Source: Candidatus Bipolaricaulota bacterium (GTDB taxonomy: Bacteria; Bipolaricaulota; Bipolaricaulia; Bipolaricaulales; Bipolaricaulaceae). From it: a stretch of 64,000 nt of DNA. The notes beneath the pieces are model-generated. The model worked only from the letters and a program-made list of their open reading frames with translations, ran no database searches and was not told the DNA's origin. Shown here piece by piece: positions 7,756 to 23,812 of the stretch; position 1 is the stretch's first letter, and each line of letters starts with the position of its first letter. Both the position numbers and the translations under genes were made by a program. Location of the stretch: contig JANXBT010000002.1 of NCBI GenBank assembly GCA_025060415.1, positions 310,001 through 374,000 of the forward strand, written 5' to 3'.

Positions 7756-10700
7756 ATGGAGGCGGAAGCGCGCATCTGGCAGTTGGGGCTGGCGGAGCTG
7801 GACCGGTGGATGGCGGAGCTCGCCGCGGCGGAGGAGCGCCGCCAACAAGAGAAGATCATCCTCATCCCCTCGGAGTCCCTCACCCCGCGGGCCGTGCGGG
7901 AGGCCCTGGGATCGGCCTTCGTGTCCATTTACGCCGAGGGCTATCCCCGCGAGGAGACCCTGCGGCTTTCCGAGGCACGCCTGCGGGACGTGGCCGAACA
8001 GCTCGCCTATTACCGGCGTTACAGCGACCGCCGCTTCTACAAGGGCGTGGAGTTCGCGGACCTCGTGGAGGCCCTGGCTTGCCGGCGCTGCGCCGAGCTC
8101 TTCGCCACCCCCGAGGTCCCGCCGGAGGCCATCTTCGTGAACGTCCAGCCCCTCTCCGGGGCGGCCGCCAACCTCGCCATCTACGAGGCCCTCCTCAAGC
8201 CGGGCGACACCCTCATGGCCATGGACCTCGCCCAGGGCGGGCACCTCTCCCACGGCTCGCCCTTCCACGTCTCCGGCCGGCGCTACCGCATCGTGAGCTA
8301 TGGCGTGGACCCGAAGACAGAAAAGCTCGATTACGATCGCATTGCGGATTTAGCCAAGCGGGAAAAGCCCAAGATGATCGTGGCCGGCTACACCTCCTAC
8401 CCTTGGGCCCCCGACTGGAAGGCCTTCCGCGAGATCGCCTCCTCCGTGGGCGCCTTCCTGTTCGCGGACATCGCCCACACCGCGGGGATGGCCAGCGCCG
8501 GCGCCTATCCCACCCCCGTGGGCTACGCGGACGTGGTGATGTTCACCACCCACAAGACCATCTGCGGGCCGCGGGGCGCGGTCATCCTCTCCTTCGACCC
8601 CGACATCGCCGCGCGCATCGACCAGGCCGTGTTCCCCGGCGAACAGGGCGGCCCCCACGTGAACAAGTTCGCGGCCATGGCCGTGGCCTTCGCCCTGGCC
8701 CAAACCCCCGAGTTCAAACGCCTCATGTTCCGCATCGTGGAGAACGCCCAGGCCCTGGCCCGCTTCCTCGCGGCGGAGGGCCTCCGCCTCTGCTACGGCG
8801 GGACGGACACCCACCTTCTGGTCCTGGATCTGCGGGCCGTCCCCACGCCCAACGGGCACCCCCTCCTGGGCGAGGCGGCCGCGCGCATCCTGGACCTGGT
8901 GGGCATCGTGGCCAACAAGAACACCATCCCGGGCGACACCTCCGCCGCCGACGCCCGGGGGCTCCGCTACGGCACGCCCTGGGTCACCCAGCGGGGCATG
9001 GGCGAGCGGGAGATGCGGGAGATCGCGGAGATCACGGCCCGGGTGTTCCGGGCCATTCACCCCTTCACCTACGCGGGCGTGCGCGGCCCCCTCCCCCGCG
9101 GGAAACTCCCCCTCCCCGTCCTGCGGGAGGCCAAGGCCCGGGTGGAGGAGCTCCTTGCCCGCTTCGGCGTGGAGGCGAGGCGGCCGCCCGTGGCCGTGGC
9201 CAACCCCAAGGGCCGGGCCAAGGCCATCCTCGTGCGGGGCGGAAGGGCCGAACACCTCCTGCACGAGGCCGCCACCGCCCACGTCCTGCGCCTGAACCCC
9301 GGGGAGGCCACGCGCGCCCTCTTCCTCGACGAGAAGGGCGAGGTCCTGAGCGAGGCGGTGATCGGCCGGCTGGCCGACGACGCGCTGGGCCGCAAGCGCT
9401 TCGTGGTCCTGGCGCCCGAGGCGCGGGCCGGCGCGCTCGCGGAGTGGCTCGCCGCCCTTTCCGACGGGTACGTGCTCTTCGACCCCCACGACCTCTTCCG
9501 CAAGGTGCAGGGGCCGGCGGTGGTGGAGGAGTTCCGGGAGGAGGCGCGGCTGCGCCTGGACGGGCAGGAGCTGGTCGTAGCCGGGGGGCACGCCGATCCG
9601 GCCTTTTGGGGCGTCGCCGGCCGGGCGGAGGACGCGCAGAGGGCCTTCCCCCAGCTTTTCGCCCTGGGCAAGCCCTACTTCGTGGGCGGCGGGGCGCTTC
9701 GGGGCCAAGGGGGGCGCGCGCCCTACGCGCCCCAGGCCCCGCAGCGGCCGGTGCAGGGAACCGCCCTGCACGCCTGGCACGTGCGCGCCGGCGCGCGCAT
9801 GACCCACTTCGCGGGCTACGAGATGCCCCTCTGGTACACGTCGGCCCTGGCGGAGCACCGGGCCGTGCGCACCCAGGCCGGGCTCTTCGACCTGGGGCAT
9901 ATGGGGGTGTTCTCCGTGTCCGGCCGCTACGCCGAAAGCTTCCTCAACCTCGTCACCACCAACTACGCGGGCTGGCTCCACCCCGGGCAATCCCAGTACG
10001 GGTTCCTCCTCGACCCGGAGGGGCACGTGCTTGATGACCTCATGGTGTACCGGCTGGGCCCGGAGGAGTTCCTCCTTGTCGTGAACGCCGCGAACGAGGG
10101 GAAGGACTGGGACTGGCTGTGCGCGGTGAACGAGGGGCGGGCCCTTTTGGACCCGGAGCGGCCGTGGGTGGAGCCCGACGGTCCTGTGGTCCTGCGGGAC
10201 CTCAAGCGGGAGGAGGGGCTGGTGGACCTGGCCCTGCAGGGGCCGGCCTCCCGGGCGATCCTGGCCCGGCTCCTGCCCCCGCGGGATCGGCACCGGCTCG
10301 TGGCCCTGCGCCGCACGGAGTTTTTGGACGTGCGCCTCGCCGGCCAAGAGGTCCTCTGCGCCCGCACCGGCTACACCGGGGAGCCCCTGGGCTACGAGCT
10401 TTTGGTGCCGGGGCCCGCGGTGGAAACGGTGTGGGAGGCCCTGCTGGACGCGGGGAAGGAAAAGGGGCTCGTGCCCTGCGGCCTGGCGGCCCGGGACTCC
10501 CTGCGCACGGAGGCCGGCCTGCCCCTCTACGGCCACGAGCTCGCGGGCGAGCTCGACATCCTCCCCCACGAGGCGGGCTTTGCCCCCTATGTTAAGCTGC
10601 ACAAGCCGTTCTTCGTGGGGCGGGCCGCGTACCTTCAGGCCCTGCAGAACTGGACGCGGGAGGTGGTGCGGTTTGGGGTGGAGGCGGGGCAGCGGCCGAT

Positions 10701-17955: not shown

Positions 17956-19194
17956 TCAAGTATATCCCAGGATCTCGGCGCGCACGATCACGTCCTCGGT
18001 GCGGGCGCCCGTGCCCACCAGGGCCACGGGCACGCCCACAAATTCCTCCACGAAGCGCACGTAGCGCTGCGCGGCCTTGGGAAGCGCGGAAAAATCCCGC
18101 ACGCCGGCGATCCCCTCCCCCCACCCCGGCAGGGTCTCGTACACCGGCTCCGCATGGAAGAGCTCGTCCGCGGAAGAGGGGAAGTCCTCCCGGCGCCTCC
18201 CTCCCCAGCGGTAGGCCACGGCCACCTTGAGCTCGGAAAAGCCCGAGAGGACGTCGAGCTTGGTGAGGGCCAGGTGGGTGAAGCCGTTGATCGCGCAGGC
18301 GTAGCGGAGGGCCACGAGGTCCAGCCAGCCGCAGCGGCGGGGCCGGCCCGTGGTGGCCCCGTACTCCCGGCCGGACTCCCGCAGCCGCTCCCCCACCGCC
18401 CCGCGCTCCTCCGTGGGCAAGGGGCCGGCGCCCACCCGCGTGGTGTAGGCCTTGGCCACCCCCACCACGGCCGCGAACTCCACCCGCACCCCCGTCCCCC
18501 AAGGGATGCCGTGCACCGTGGTGGGGGAGGAGGTGACGTAAGGGTAGGTCCCCCAGTCGAGGTCGAGGAGGGTGCCCTGGGCGCCCTCGAACACCACGGT
18601 TTGGCCCGCGCGCAGGGCGTGGGCCAGCGCGGCCCGGGCGTCCCCAACGGCCGGGGAAAACCGGTCCCGCAGCCGCAGGAGCTCGGCGAGGACCTGGGCC
18701 GCCTCCTCCCCGTCCTCGGCGCGCAGCCGCTCCTCCACCCGCTCGGGGTGGAAAAGGTCCACAAGGCGCAGGCCCCGGCGAGCGGCCCGGTCCGCGTACG
18801 CCGGCCCGATCCCTTTCCTTGTGGTCCCCAGGGCCTGCGCCGCGCCCTCCCGCTCCTCCCGCCGCCGGTGGTAGGGGAGGATCAGGTGGGCCCGCTCGGA
18901 AAGGAGGAGGCGGGGCGGAGGGCGCCCCTGCCCCGCGAGCTCCGCAAGCTCCGCCTCCAGGGCCCAGAGGTCCAGGACCACGCCGTGGGCCAGCACCCCC
19001 AAGCAGTGGGGGTGGAGGGCCCCGGCCGGCACCTGGTGGAGGCGGGCCTCCCCATGCGCGTCCACCACGGTGTGGCCGGCGTTGGGGCCGCCGTTGAAGC
19101 GCACGCACAGGTCGGCCCGGCGGCAGAGGAAGTGCACGATCTTCCCCTTGGCCTCGTCGCCCCACTGGGCCCCGATCACGGCGATCGCCGGCAT
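17956..19194 (-). CDS. purA: adenylosuccinate synthetase
   Basis: Joins IMP and aspartate using GTP, the first committed step to AMP. It has 412 aa from ATG 19194, chosen because it overlaps the ileS stop as TGATG; frame further upstream lies inside ileS. Visible motifs are [14 protein letters not shown] with catalytic Asp and Lys, [11 protein letters not shown] with the catalytic His, and the C-terminal [11 protein letters not shown] and TKLDVLSG. The P-loop-like motif reads GDEAKGK where GDEGKGK is usual, and Asp after IV is His. It is translationally coupled to ileS. Confidence 0.93.
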
Positions 19195-22100
19195 CAGCCC
19201 CTCCCCACGCGCCGGAGCCAAACCCGGCCGCGCTTCCCGTGGACCTCCAGCTCGGCCTCGTGCTCGGCGCCCGCCAGCGCCCCGGCCACCAGGTCCACGG
19301 CCAACACCTCCTCCTTGATCCGCTCGGGGAAGCGGGCGAACACGGCGCTCAGCTCCCCCTCGTACCCCACCACGATGCGGTCGGTGACCTCAAAGCCCGC
19401 CTCCTTGCGCAGAAGCTGCAGGCGGTGCACGAGCTCCCTGAGGTCCCCCAGGGCCCGGAGCTCCTCGTCCAGGCGGGTATCGAGGGCCACGGCGCCGCCC
19501 GCGTCCTCCTCCACCACGAAGCCGGGCGCCGGCTCCCACGCGACCTGCACGTCCTCCCGAAGGATGAGCACCTTCCCTTGCCCCAGGGCGAGCTCGGCTT
19601 GTCCATGCTCCAGGAGCGTGCGGGCCCAGGCGGGGTCGGCCTCGCGGAGGAGCCGGCCCACGGCCTGGGCCTGGGCGCCCAGGCGCGGCCCCAGGCGCCG
19701 GAAATCCGGGGCGAGCCGGGGCTGCCGGGCCGCCCCAAGGTCCGGCACCACCCGCAGCTCCAGCACGTTGAGCTCCTCTTTGGCCAGGGCCCAGAGCTCC
19801 GGGGGGATGGCGGCGTCCCCGGGCTTTTCCTGCACCAAAAGGAGGCGCAGGGGCTGGCGCACCTTGAGCTTGGCGCGGTTGCGCGCGGCCAGGCCCAGCT
19901 CCACCACCTGCCGCACCCGCGCCATCTGCTCCTCTAAGGTGCGGTCCCGGAACAGGGGCGCGGGCCAGTCCGCAAGGTGCACGGACTCCGGGTCCGCCGC
20001 GGTGCGCAGGTTCCGCCACATGGCCTCCGCCAAGAACGGCACGAAGGGCGCCAAAAGCACGCTCAGGGTCTTCAGGGCGGCGTAGAGGGTGTGGTAGGCG
20101 CAGCGCTTGTCCCGCCCCATCCCCTCGCCCCAAAAGCGCGGCCGGGAGGTGCGGATGTACCAGTTGGAGAGGTCGTCCACGAAGTCCTCCAGCGCACGGG
20201 TGGCCCGCACAACGTCGTAGGCGTCCAGGGCCTGGGTCACCTCCTCCACCGCCTGGGACAGGCGGGAGCCCAGCCAGCGGTCCAGGGCCGGCCGCTCCGC
20301 CCAGGGGACGACGCCCTCCCCGGGGTCGAACCCGTCGATCGCCGCATAGAGGGCGAAGAAGTCGTGGCAGTGGCGCACGGTCTCCAGAAACCCGAAGCGC
20401 GCGGCCCGGACGCCGTCCACGGACAGCCGCCGCTCCGTCCAGGGCGCGGACTCCGAGAGGAGGTACCAGCGGATGGCGTCCGCGCCGTGCTCGTCCGCGA
20501 GGGGCAGGGGGTCGATCACGTTGCCCCGGGACTTGCTCATCTTCTGGCCTTGGGCGTCCAGGCCCAGCCCGGTCACCAACACCCGCCGGTAGGGCGTGGC
20601 CCCGTGCACCAGGACCCCGGTGACGAGAAGGGTGTAGAACCAGCCGCGCGTCTGGTCCAGGCCCTCGCAGATGAAGTCCGCCGGGTAGTTTTCCCGGAAG
20701 AGCTCGGCGTTCTCGAAGGGGTAGTGCCACTGGGCGGTGTGCATGGCGCCGGAGTCGAACCAGGTGTCCAGGACGTAGGGCTCCCGCCGCATCCGCCCCC
20801 CGCAGGGGCAGCGCAGCTCCACCCGGTCGATGTAGGGCCGGTGGAGCTCCACGCGGCGGGCGAGGTCGGGGTCCAGGGCCTTGGCCACAAGCTCCGCGCG
20901 GGACCCGATCACCTCCTGGTTCCCGCAGGAGGGGCACGTCCACACGGGGAGGGGGGTGCCCCAGTAGCGCTCGCGGGACAGGGCCCAGTCCCGCATGGAC
21001 TCCAAAAAGTCCCCGAACCGCCCGCGCCCCACGTGCTCCGGATGCCAAGTGATCCGCGCGTTCTCCGCGAGGATCCGGTCCTTCTCCCGAGTGGTGGCGA
21101 TGAACCAGGAGTCCATGGCGTAGTAGAGGAGGGGGGTGTCGCACCGCCAGCAGAAGGGGTACTCGTGTTCGTAGGTTTCGGCGCGGAAGAGGCGGCCGCG
21201 GGCGCGCAAATCCTCAAGGATCTTGGGGTCCGCCTCCTTCACGAACAGGCCGGCGCCGAGGGGGAAGTCCGCGGTGAACCGGCCGGCCCGGTCCACCGGC
21301 TGCAGGAGGGGGAGCCCCTCGGCCCGCCCCAGCTCGTAGTCCTCCTCGCCGAAGGCGGGGGCGATGTGCACCACCCCCGTGCCCTCCTCCAGGGACACGA
21401 ACGCCCCGGCCACCACGCGGTAGGCCCCCTCCCCGGCCAGGGGGTAGAGGGGGAGGTAGCGCCGACCCAGAAGCTCCCGTCCCGGGAATTCCCGGAGGAC
21501 TTGGGCCTCCTCCCCCAGGACGGCCGCCAGCCGGGGCCGGGCCAGGATCAGCCTCTCCCCCCGGAAGAGGACCTCCACGTAGGGTGCCTCCGGAGCCACG
21601 GCCAGGGCCACGTTGGCCGGCAGGGTCCAGGGCGTGGTGGTCCACACCAGGATGGCCACGGAGGGGTCATCCGCAAGGGGCATGCGCACGAACACAGAAG
21701 GGTCGGCCACCCGCCGGTAGCCCTGGGCCACCTCGTGGGAGGAAAGGGAGGTCCCGCAGCGCGGGCAATAGGGCAGGATCTTGTGGCCCTTGTAGAGGAG
21801 CCCTTTTTTGTGGATCTCCTTGAGCATCCACCACAGGCTCTCGATGTAGGCGTCGGTGTAGGTGATGTAGGGGTGGGCGAGGTCGATCCAGAACCCCAGG
21901 CGCACCATCATCCGCTCCCATTCGCGGATGTAGCGGTCCACGGAGGCCCGGCAGGCCCGCACGAAGTTCTCCACCCCAAGCCGCTCGATCTCGGCCTTGG
22001 TGGAGAGGCCCAGCTCCTTTTCCACCTCCAGCTCCACGGGGAGGCCGTGGCAATCCCAGCCGGCCCGGCGCGGCACGTAGTAGCCCCGCAGGGTCTTGTA

Positions 22101-22307
22101 GCGGGGGAAGAGGTCCTTATACACGCGGGCCAAAAGGTGGGCGAAGTGGGGGCGGCCGTTGGCCGTGGGCGGCCCTTCAAAGAACACGAAGCGCTCCCGG
22201 CCCCGGCGCCCCTCCACGGAGCGCTCGAACACCCGCCCCTCCTCCCAGAACCGGAGGATCGCCTCTTCCCGCCGCTTGGGATCGCCCTCCAACTTTTGGA
22301 ACCCCAT
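19194..22307 (-). CDS. ileS: isoleucyl-tRNA synthetase, IleS2 (eukaryote/archaea-like) type
   Basis: 1037-aa class I synthetase that charges tRNA-Ile, with a CP1 editing domain. PYCPRCGTSLSSHEVAQGY and the overall layout match the IleS2 subtype. The HIGH signature reads HFAH (residues 54-57), so its third position is Ala instead of Gly. KMSKS is intact at 589-593. The tryptophan-rich WWFxG-type ILxxG zinc end of IleS1 is absent. The start is ATG 22307 (MGFQKLEGDP) because AAAGGAGG lies 5 nt upstream; a longer frame exists but lacks a ribosome site. A candidate leader peptide and about 120-nt leader precede it. Confidence 0.93.
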   Translation of the reverse strand: MGFQKLEGDPKRREEAILRFWEEGRVFERSVEGRRGRERFVFFEGPPTANGRPHFAHLLARVYKDLFPRYKTLRGYYVPRRAGWDCHGLPVELEVEKELGLSTKAEIERLGVENFVRACRASVDRYIREWERMMVRLGFWIDLAHPYITYTDAYIESLWWMLKEIHKKGLLYKGHKILPYCPRCGTSLSSHEVAQGYRRVADPSVFVRMPLADDPSVAILVWTTTPWTLPANVALAVAPEAPYVEVLFRGERLILARPRLAAVLGEEAQVLREFPGRELLGRRYLPLYPLAGEGAYRVVAGAFVSLEEGTGVVHIAPAFGEEDYELGRAEGLPLLQPVDRAGRFTADFPLGAGLFVKEADPKILEDLRARGRLFRAETYEHEYPFCWRCDTPLLYYAMDSWFIATTREKDRILAENARITWHPEHVGRGRFGDFLESMRDWALSRERYWGTPLPVWTCPSCGNQEVIGSRAELVAKALDPDLARRVELHRPYIDRVELRCPCGGRMRREPYVLDTWFDSGAMHTAQWHYPFENAELFRENYPADFICEGLDQTRGWFYTLLVTGVLVHGATPYRRVLVTGLGLDAQGQKMSKSRGNVIDPLPLADEHGADAIRWYLLSESAPWTERRLSVDGVRAARFGFLETVRHCHDFFALYAAIDGFDPGEGVVPWAERPALDRWLGSRLSQAVEEVTQALDAYDVVRATRALEDFVDDLSNWYIRTSRPRFWGEGMGRDKRCAYHTLYAALKTLSVLLAPFVPFLAEAMWRNLRTAADPESVHLADWPAPLFRDRTLEEQMARVRQVVELGLAARNRAKLKVRQPLRLLLVQEKPGDAAIPPELWALAKEELNVLELRVVPDLGAARQPRLAPDFRRLGPRLGAQAQAVGRLLREADPAWARTLLEHGQAELALGQGKVLILREDVQVAWEPAPGFVVEEDAGGAVALDTRLDEELRALGDLRELVHRLQLLRKEAGFEVTDRIVVGYEGELSAVFARFPERIKEEVLAVDLVAGALAGAEHEAELEVHGKRGRVWLRRVGRG

Positions 22308-22332
22308 GCCGCCTCCTTTTCGCCCGGGCGTG

Positions 22333-22392
22333 CCGTCCACCAGGGGGTGCAGACGGGAAGGGATGAGGTCAGCCCTGCCCCCGCCGGGGCAG
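22333..22392 (-). promoter_or_regulatory. ileS leader RNA hairpins
   Basis: Two hairpins can be drawn. The first is CTGCCCC-GGCG-GGGGCAG (22392-22375), inside the last codons of the leader peptide, so a ribosome stalled at the Ile codons would affect it. The second is an interrupted CCGTC..CACC-CCCT-GGTG..GACGG hairpin (22356-22333) just upstream of the ileS ribosome site. No T-run follows either, so control of translation is more likely than termination. I see no T-box consensus. Confidence 0.35.
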
Positions 22393-22425
22393 GATGATGC
22401 GGCGGGAAATCAACAGGACGCGCAT
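22369..22425 (-). CDS. candidate leader peptide upstream of ileS
   Basis: An 18-codon open frame, MRVLLISRRIILPRRGQG, begins 8 nt after a perfect TATAAT and ends 61 nt before the ileS ATG. It contains three Ile, three Leu and one Val codon. The start geometry (hexamer, 8 nt ending GGCC, ATG) is the same as at arsR, lpd and the acyl-CoA synthetase, which suggests a real leaderless translation start. Sensing of charged tRNA-Ile by this peptide is inferred. Confidence 0.45.
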   Translation of the reverse strand: MRVLLISRRIILPRRGQG

Positions 22426-22433
22426 GGCCCGCG

Positions 22434-22439
22434 ATTATA
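22434..22439 (-). promoter_or_regulatory. TATAAT -10 of the ileS-purA unit
   Basis: A perfect TATAAT lies on the minus strand, 3 nt past the lpd stop and 8 nt before the leader-peptide ATG. No clear -35 is seen at 16-18 nt. Confidence 0.55.
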
Positions 22440-22441
22440 CC

Positions 22442-23812
22442 TCACAGGGTATGCACGGGTTTCCCAAGGATCTGCCAGGCCGCCTCCCAAATCGCCTCGG
22501 GGAAGGTGGGGTGGGCGTGCACGGCGTGGGCGAGGTCCTCCGGCCGAAGCCCCAGGGCCACGGCCAGGCCCACCTCGCCCAACAGCTCGGTGGCGTGCGG
22601 CCCCACCACCTCCGCGCCCACCACCCGCCCCTCCGCGTCCACGGCCAGGCCCACGAAGCCCTCGGGCTCCCCCTCCGCCAGGGCCCGCCCCAGCGCCCCG
22701 AAGGGGAACCGGGCCACCCGCAGGCCGGGGGCGTCCAAAGAGGCGCCCACCAGGGCCACCTCGGGCTGGGTGAACACGGCCTGGGGCACGGGCGCAGAGG
22801 GGAGCGGAGGAGCGGGCTGGCCCCGCAGCTCCGCGGCCAGGCCCTCCGCCAGGGCCAGGCCCTCGTGGGAGGCCTTGTGGGCCAGCAGCGGCCCCCCGCG
22901 CACGTCCCCGATGGCGTAGAGGCCGGGTCCAGCCCGAAAACGCTCGTCCGTGCGCACAAAGCCCCTCTCCAGGGGCACGCCCAGCTCCTCCAGGCCTAAT
23001 CCGAAGGAGAGGGGCCGCCGGCCCACCGCCACCAGCACGGCCTCGGCCTCGATCTCCTCCGTTCCGCCCGCGGTGCGCACCAGCAGCCCCCGGGGGGTGA
23101 GCCCCACCGCCGCGGTCCGCAACCGCACCGCGATCCCCTGGCGCTGCAGGGCCTGGCGCAGGAGGGCCTCCCCCCGCCGGGAAAGCCCCACCCCGGGCAG
23201 GAGGCCCTCCAGCATCTCCACCACCGTGACCTGGGCCCCCAGCCGGCGGTACACCGTGGCCAGCTCCAGGCCCACCACGCCGCCGCCCACCACCGCCAGC
23301 CGCTCCGGGATCCTGGGGAGGGCCAGGGCGTGGTCCGAGGACCACACCCGCTCCCCGTCCCAAGGGAGGGAGGGGAGCTCGCTGGGGACGGAGCCGGTGG
23401 CCAGGACGATGGCCCGGGCGCGCAGGAGCTGCGCGCTTTCCCCGCGGACCTCCACGAGGCCCGGCCCCCGCAGCACCGCCTCCCCCCGCAGGACCTCCAC
23501 CCCCGCCGCGGAAAGGAGCCGGCCCACGCCCTCCCGCAGCTTGGCCACCACCTCCCCCACGAACCCCCGGAGCCGCGGCAAGTCCACCCGGGCCTCAAGC
23601 TCGATCCCCATGTGCGCGTAGAGCGCGCGCTTCCCTAGGGGCAGGGTGGCCGCGTACAGGGCCTTGGTGGGGATGCAGCCGCGGTTGAGGCACGTGCCGC
23701 CGAGCTCGGCCCGCTCCACAAGGACGGTCTCGATCCCCAGTTGCCCCAGCCGGCGGGCGGCCACGTAGCCCGCCGGGCCTCCCCCGATCACCACCACGTC
23801 CACGGCGCGCAT
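22442..23812 (-). CDS. lpdA: dihydrolipoamide dehydrogenase
   Basis: Reoxidises dihydrolipoyl groups of the glycine cleavage H-protein or 2-oxoacid dehydrogenases with NAD. 456 aa from ATG 23812 (MRAVDVVVIGGG). It has the FAD motif GGGPAGYVAA, redox disulfide GGTCLNRGCIPTKAL, second dinucleotide motif VVGGGVVGLELA, FAD motif YAIGDV, and the C-terminal HAHPTFPEA with the catalytic His-Glu pair. It stands alone between divergent neighbours. With the GlyA-GcvT fusion in the same window, a glycine-cleavage role is reasonable but unproven. Confidence 0.92.
   Translation of the reverse strand: MRAVDVVVIGGGPAGYVAARRLGQLGIETVLVERAELGGTCLNRGCIPTKALYAATLPLGKRALYAHMGIELEARVDLPRLRGFVGEVVAKLREGVGRLLSAAGVEVLRGEAVLRGPGLVEVRGESAQLLRARAIVLATGSVPSELPSLPWDGERVWSSDHALALPRIPERLAVVGGGVVGLELATVYRRLGAQVTVVEMLEGLLPGVGLSRRGEALLRQALQRQGIAVRLRTAAVGLTPRGLLVRTAGGTEEIEAEAVLVAVGRRPLSFGLGLEELGVPLERGFVRTDERFRAGPGLYAIGDVRGGPLLAHKASHEGLALAEGLAAELRGQPAPPLPSAPVPQAVFTQPEVALVGASLDAPGLRVARFPFGALGRALAEGEPEGFVGLAVDAEGRVVGAEVVGPHATELLGEVGLAVALGLRPEDLAHAVHAHPTFPEAIWEAAWQILGKPVHTL

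Follow-up and report, generated by a model that had tools for sequence, protein, structure and literature searches.

A leader frame and hairpin upstream of ileS

The window, that is, the whole stretch of 64,000 nt analysed here, carries on its minus strand the gene of an isoleucine–tRNA ligase (ileS) preceded by a promoter hexamer, a short open reading frame and a hairpin. From promoter to gene, the features are:

22434..22439 (−): −10 element, a perfect TATAAT hexamer
22369..22425 (−): leader open reading frame MRVLLISRRIILPRRGQG with its TGA stop, conserved in relatives
22375..22392 (−): hairpin CTGCCCC-GGCG-GGGGCAG, lying over codons 12–17 and abutting the third (last) Ile codon
22371..22416 (−): core of 46 nt, to which covariance model R1 gives 47.5 bits
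22319..22368 (−): spacer from the leader stop to the ileS ribosome site, in which the second hairpin of the preliminary description was drawn
22312..22318 (−): ileS Shine-Dalgarno sequence AAGGAGG, kept in relatives
19194..22307 (−): ileS, isoleucine–tRNA ligase, 1037 aa, ATG at 22307 (TIGR00392, 917 bits)

The leader frame MRVLLISRRIILPRRGQG comprises 18 codons, from its ATG (22425–22423) to its TGA (22371–22369), and begins 8 nt behind the hexamer (22439–22434). Its three Ile codons occupy 22410–22408, 22398–22396 and 22395–22393, and the 7-bp stem can gain one pair reaching into the last of them; the folding energy of the 25-nt hairpin segment is −19.2 kcal/mol. The combination TATAAT-N5-12-ATG occurs a single time in the 64-kb window, compared with 0.02 occurrences expected by chance. 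The preliminary description had named the hexamer, the 8-nt gap, the 18-codon frame with three Ile codons, the 7-bp hairpin over its last codons and the gene as ileS, and all of these were found in the letters of the minus strand, the gene being confirmed by its TIGR00392 match. Its remark that the start geometry resembles that of other genes in the window is fair, because the 8-nt spacing recurs, with weaker hexamers, before three large frames, at 23812 (−), 34030 (+) and 37641 (+). A second hairpin can indeed be drawn where it placed one, close to the ileS ribosome site, but the structure is unconserved even in the genome whose IleS is 88% identical.

Within its own genome the element stands alone: the next best R1 place scores 19.6 bits, which is chance level, and valS, leuS and metG have no comparable leader. 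A search of Rfam returned no match to the element at the gathering threshold.

Conservation across Bipolaricaulota

The window is from the phylum Ca. Bipolaricaulota. We located ileS in 100 relatives and read the regions upstream. In family f1, ileS is recognisable in 37 genomes, and R1 finds the element in front of it in 36 of these; the count leaves out G010, G014 and G020, in which the ileS search gave only a paralogous synthetase. The small frame is kept in the same proportion; relatives lacking it had been named beforehand as counting against the leader, and the sole such f1 genome is G018. TATAAT or a one-base variant precedes the leader frame in f1 relatives. With the start set at the first ATG or GTG compatible with the −10 element, the f1 leaders have 14–19 codons; they end, before the stop codon, in ..IILPR, ..TILPRQGQE, ..FILPPQGQG, ..LIAPS and similar sequences, always with Ile directly before the stem, and the stop codon lies either in the hairpin loop (TAG) or past the hairpin. 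Family f2 has a diverged form ending in ..PLLIYIxVPR in 29 genomes, of which 27 show it directly before ileS and 2 stop at the contig end; nearly all of these leaders have 19 codons, and two are shorter. Because the loop length varies in f2, its model (R2) uses sequence only. One genome of family f4 (G043) carries a leader ending in ..SIIILPL at ileS, and no such leader occurs in the upstream regions read in families f3, f6, f7 and f9. A scan of the genomes of 84,980 species with the exact core pattern ATCATCCTGCCCC-N4-GGGGCAGG gave 13 matches, all in Ca. Bipolaricaulota or Acetothermia and all 13 directly before the ileS start. Judged by its sequence conservation, the leader is real, far beyond chance, because relatives keep it.

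Three further observations concern individual loci. In G018 (L034), TATAAT is still present before ileS, and the leader and hairpin are gone, a probable natural deletion. The weak places that R1 gives in G004, G020 and G038 were dismissed, the surrounding sequence being unrelated. At L138 (G005:C2, ~7904–8134), the full ileS is accompanied by a truncated extra copy (first 77 residues) whose own leader is intact, a partial duplication or an assembly effect.

The two large families differ in how directly the frame itself testifies to translation. The coding score of the f2 frames exceeds that of all 1000 column shuffles (z 4.3), and within their PLLIYI block only synonymous changes occur, at four third positions and at one first position (leucine CTG/TTG). 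The f1 frames alone, whose upstream part is too variable, do not pass the same kind of test, their score being reached by 120 of 1000 shuffles; the f1 set contains zero in-frame stops compared with ~5 expected, and in every case a start codon stands at a fitting distance from the −10 element. In g1, g11 and f4, the leader starts 7–10 nt after the −10 element and has no Shine-Dalgarno sequence, a spacing that would suit leaderless initiation. By contrast, in most other genera it starts 14–18 nt after the −10 element, mostly with a GGAG-type site. Because the start type varies between genera, leaderless initiation, which the preliminary description had made the defining trait, is on these alignments not the conserved feature. 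The comparisons support a leader frame that is a translated, conserved Ile-codon peptide tied to the hairpin and specific to ileS.

A peptide of this kind might also act by itself, with the nascent chain ..RRIILPR or ..PLLIYIxVPR halting the ribosome, perhaps on binding free isoleucine or an inhibitor, as in TnaC or SpeFL. The conservation that reaches beyond Ile (LIYI in f2, where the wobble changes are synonymous, and in f1 an ILP core in an Arg-rich context) and the nearly fixed length of the f2 leaders suit such an arrest peptide. It is nevertheless improbable: the final residue of the peptide is not constant (R, L, P, S or Q), in two or three f2 leaders the frame closes on the Ile codon or immediately past it, the upstream residues are very different between families, and the codon content tracks the target gene, which fits the prediction of codon-based sensing.

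The hairpin has been maintained along with the codons. In a 24-sequence alignment, changes on both sides occur at 3 of the 8 stem pairs, and the covariation score (0.114 compared with 0.065) is above that of all 500 shuffles; since the shuffles do not keep relatedness, we take the covariation as support rather than proof. The upstream alignment of relatives proposed in the preliminary description bears it out in part, with the start and the Ile codons kept and some compensatory changes in the stem. In f2, the stem persists through differences in loop length and in the closing pair, and in one f2 leader (L063), where the stop follows right after the Ile codons and the PR end is lost, the stem is kept through a G-U pair. 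The stem directly follows an Ile codon in f1, f4, f5 and f8; in f2, 5 nt separate the two.

Another reading makes the palindrome CTGCCCC-N4-GGGGCAG a DNA operator for a transcription factor, with the overlying frame of little import. An inverted repeat close downstream of a promoter, common to ileS and ilvD (see below), would look like the mark of a regulon. However, an Ile codon always borders the palindrome or lies closely before it, the frame and its start codon are retained in every lineage, loop lengths differ by several nt, one-sided G-U changes are retained and the own genome has only one strong site, so that an operator is very unlikely.

Occurrence of the same core before ilvD

In family f5 (four genomes) and in G058 of family f8, the same core (VILPL or IILPR before the stop, with the hairpin) is found upstream of ilvD, and what was read upstream of ileS in f5 and in G058 does not contain the element. 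The ilvD product of G058 has 571 aa (TIGR00110, 771 bits). At these loci (L124 and L171–L174), a small zinc-ribbon-like gene sits between the leader and ilvD. The ilvD leaders end in ..LLIVLVVILPL, ..FLITLVVILPL, ..VVISLVVILPL, ..LLIALVVILPL and ..LPNLLSIILPR, and mostly contain runs of Ile, Leu and Val codons. Of the 8 codons before the hairpin, Ile makes up 29% and Val 1% in the leaders at ileS; in those at ilvD, Ile accounts for 25%, Leu for 30% and Val for 27.5%.

The exchange between ileS and ilvD can be read as a natural experiment that bears on the signal sensed; among the sequence comparisons, it is the strongest evidence for sensing of isoleucine (branched-chain amino acids). Because the Ile, Leu and Val content follows the target, and because the element is exchanged between ileS and a branched-chain amino acid operon, the most plausible role of the element is to sense branched-chain aminoacyl-tRNA. 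The earlier proposal that the leader peptide senses isoleucine stands as likely, given the conservation, the specificity for ileS and the exchange with ilvD in other families. The leader would likely let the cell tune ileS, or an isoleucine biosynthesis gene, to its isoleucine supply. A search for ilvD in the own genome and its genus, represented by draft genomes, found none, and since it was not found there, ileS may be the main place of isoleucine control in this genus.

The f1 relatives have attenuators of the textbook branched-chain amino acid type upstream of ilvD (L176, L178–L182 and L194, in G023, G033, G025, G009, G020, G019 and G031). Their leaders end in ..LLVIRIPG or ..VIVLIS, with a long hairpin at the stop codon followed by a GC-rich terminator with a U-tract.

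Proposed mechanism and relation to known attenuators

We consider the element to be, quite probably, a ribosome-mediated, isoleucine-responsive attenuator of ileS. The proposal builds on what the aligned sequences have in common: a translated leader, a fixed placement of the Ile codon relative to the hairpin, some compensatory changes in the stem, restriction to ileS and the exchange with ilvD. Transcription would start at the leader ATG or a few bases upstream, and the leader would be translated as it is made. With charged tRNA-Ile in ample supply, the ribosome would pass the Ile codons, end at the stop in or just after the hairpin and leave, and the hairpin would form. With charged tRNA-Ile short, the ribosome would halt on the Ile codon abutting the hairpin, its footprint would cover the 5′ arm, and ileS expression would rise. 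A halted ribosome with the codon in its A site covers ~12–13 nt further; the hairpin would be blocked because, measured from the first base of the Ile codon, its 5′ arm reaches no further than 10 nt (f1) or 13 nt (f2). We infer the stalling, the direction of the response and the lowering of ileS expression by the hairpin from this geometry.

How the hairpin would act on ileS was sought in the sequence downstream of it. Intrinsic U-tract terminators between the hairpin and ileS were found in 5 of 57 leaders, compared with 3.9 in shuffles, and none was found in the own genome, while the positive control, the f1 ilvD attenuators, gave a terminator in 7 of 7. A freed 3′ arm re-pairing with a downstream stretch shows no excess over shuffles (z near 0), and neither a second conserved helix nor a shared helix sequestering the Shine-Dalgarno sequence was found in any group alignment. 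The spacer of the window (22319..22368) likewise contains no conserved terminator, antiterminator or sequestering helix. A classical three- or four-segment attenuator with an intrinsic terminator, as the f1 relatives have at ilvD, is therefore extremely unlikely at ileS, where U-tract terminators do not rise above chance level. Several leaders hold a single Ile codon, which is few for a classical attenuator.

The missing terminator would also suit a translational version, in which the leader ribosome governs the ileS ribosome site through mRNA structure, stability or re-initiation and not through transcription. When stalling was simulated, the predicted accessibility of the Shine-Dalgarno sequence went up in 23 of 57 leaders and down in 5, a modest effect in an unshuffled comparison, and part of the rise would follow from masking any sequence upstream. 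Weighed against the lack of a conserved sequestering helix and the variable distance from the hairpin to the ileS ribosome site (49–92 nt), this leaves control at the ribosome site rather unlikely. For a ribosome-mediated attenuator acting on transcription, our first guess at the output is Rho-dependent or hairpin-assisted early termination, which is possible. The genome encodes rho; the spacer is weakly structured and not clearly C-rich and G-poor, so Rho remains a guess. With no terminator present, the output step is a question that can be put to the test. We tentatively suggest, at somewhat less than even chances, that the hairpin over the leader end, often with the stop in its loop, is the whole switch, a terminator-less single-hairpin attenuator that, as one phylum evolved, changed its place between ileS and the ilvD operon.

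The preliminary description regarded leader-peptide control of a synthetase gene as a new design, which does not hold, because attenuators of pheST, trpS and leuS and leaderless attenuator frames are known. Comparison with these and other systems gave the following: (i) the leader-peptide attenuators of the synthetase genes pheST (PheM), trpS and leuS, described in gamma-proteobacteria and Streptomyces (PMC1262725), share with the ileS element cognate-amino-acid codons in a leader before a synthetase gene together with RNA structure, but have terminator and antiterminator hairpins, whereas the ileS element has one hairpin over the end of the frame and no intrinsic terminator; (ii) cys leader peptides without terminators (PMC1262725) and candidate cysteine-rich upstream frames (PMC4633059) have been described, and cysteine-responsive leaderless attenuators (Canestrari 2020) are cited in PMC9094748 and PMC13236596. 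As far as those citations and the earlier predictions go, and leaving the hairpins apart, the mycobacterial polycysteine attenuators resemble the ileS element in their leaderless short frame, cognate codons near the end and lack of an obvious terminator, and differ in concerning cysteine and cys operons instead of isoleucine and a synthetase; (iii) the translational ileS T-box of Actinobacteria (PMC1262725) is likewise a cis-RNA control of ileS by isoleucine charging, but its sensor is uncharged tRNA bound by RNA. Here no Rfam T-box covariance model matches upstream of ileS, and a T-box riboswitch was rejected on that ground.

In the literature, we found no earlier description of ileS leader peptides or of attenuators in Bipolaricaulota or Acetothermia. 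On our best reading of the sequences, what is new is the single-hairpin variant, often with the stop codon in the loop, at ileS; it suggests that isoleucine is sensed through a leader peptide at a synthetase gene with no recognisable terminator, and gives an uncultured phylum a well-supported element of amino-acid control. In lacking a terminator, the ileS element also differs from the ilvL/ilvGMEDA and ilvBNC attenuators, which carry branched-chain amino acid codons at the 3′ end of the leader and which the ilvD leaders of f5 and f8 resemble.
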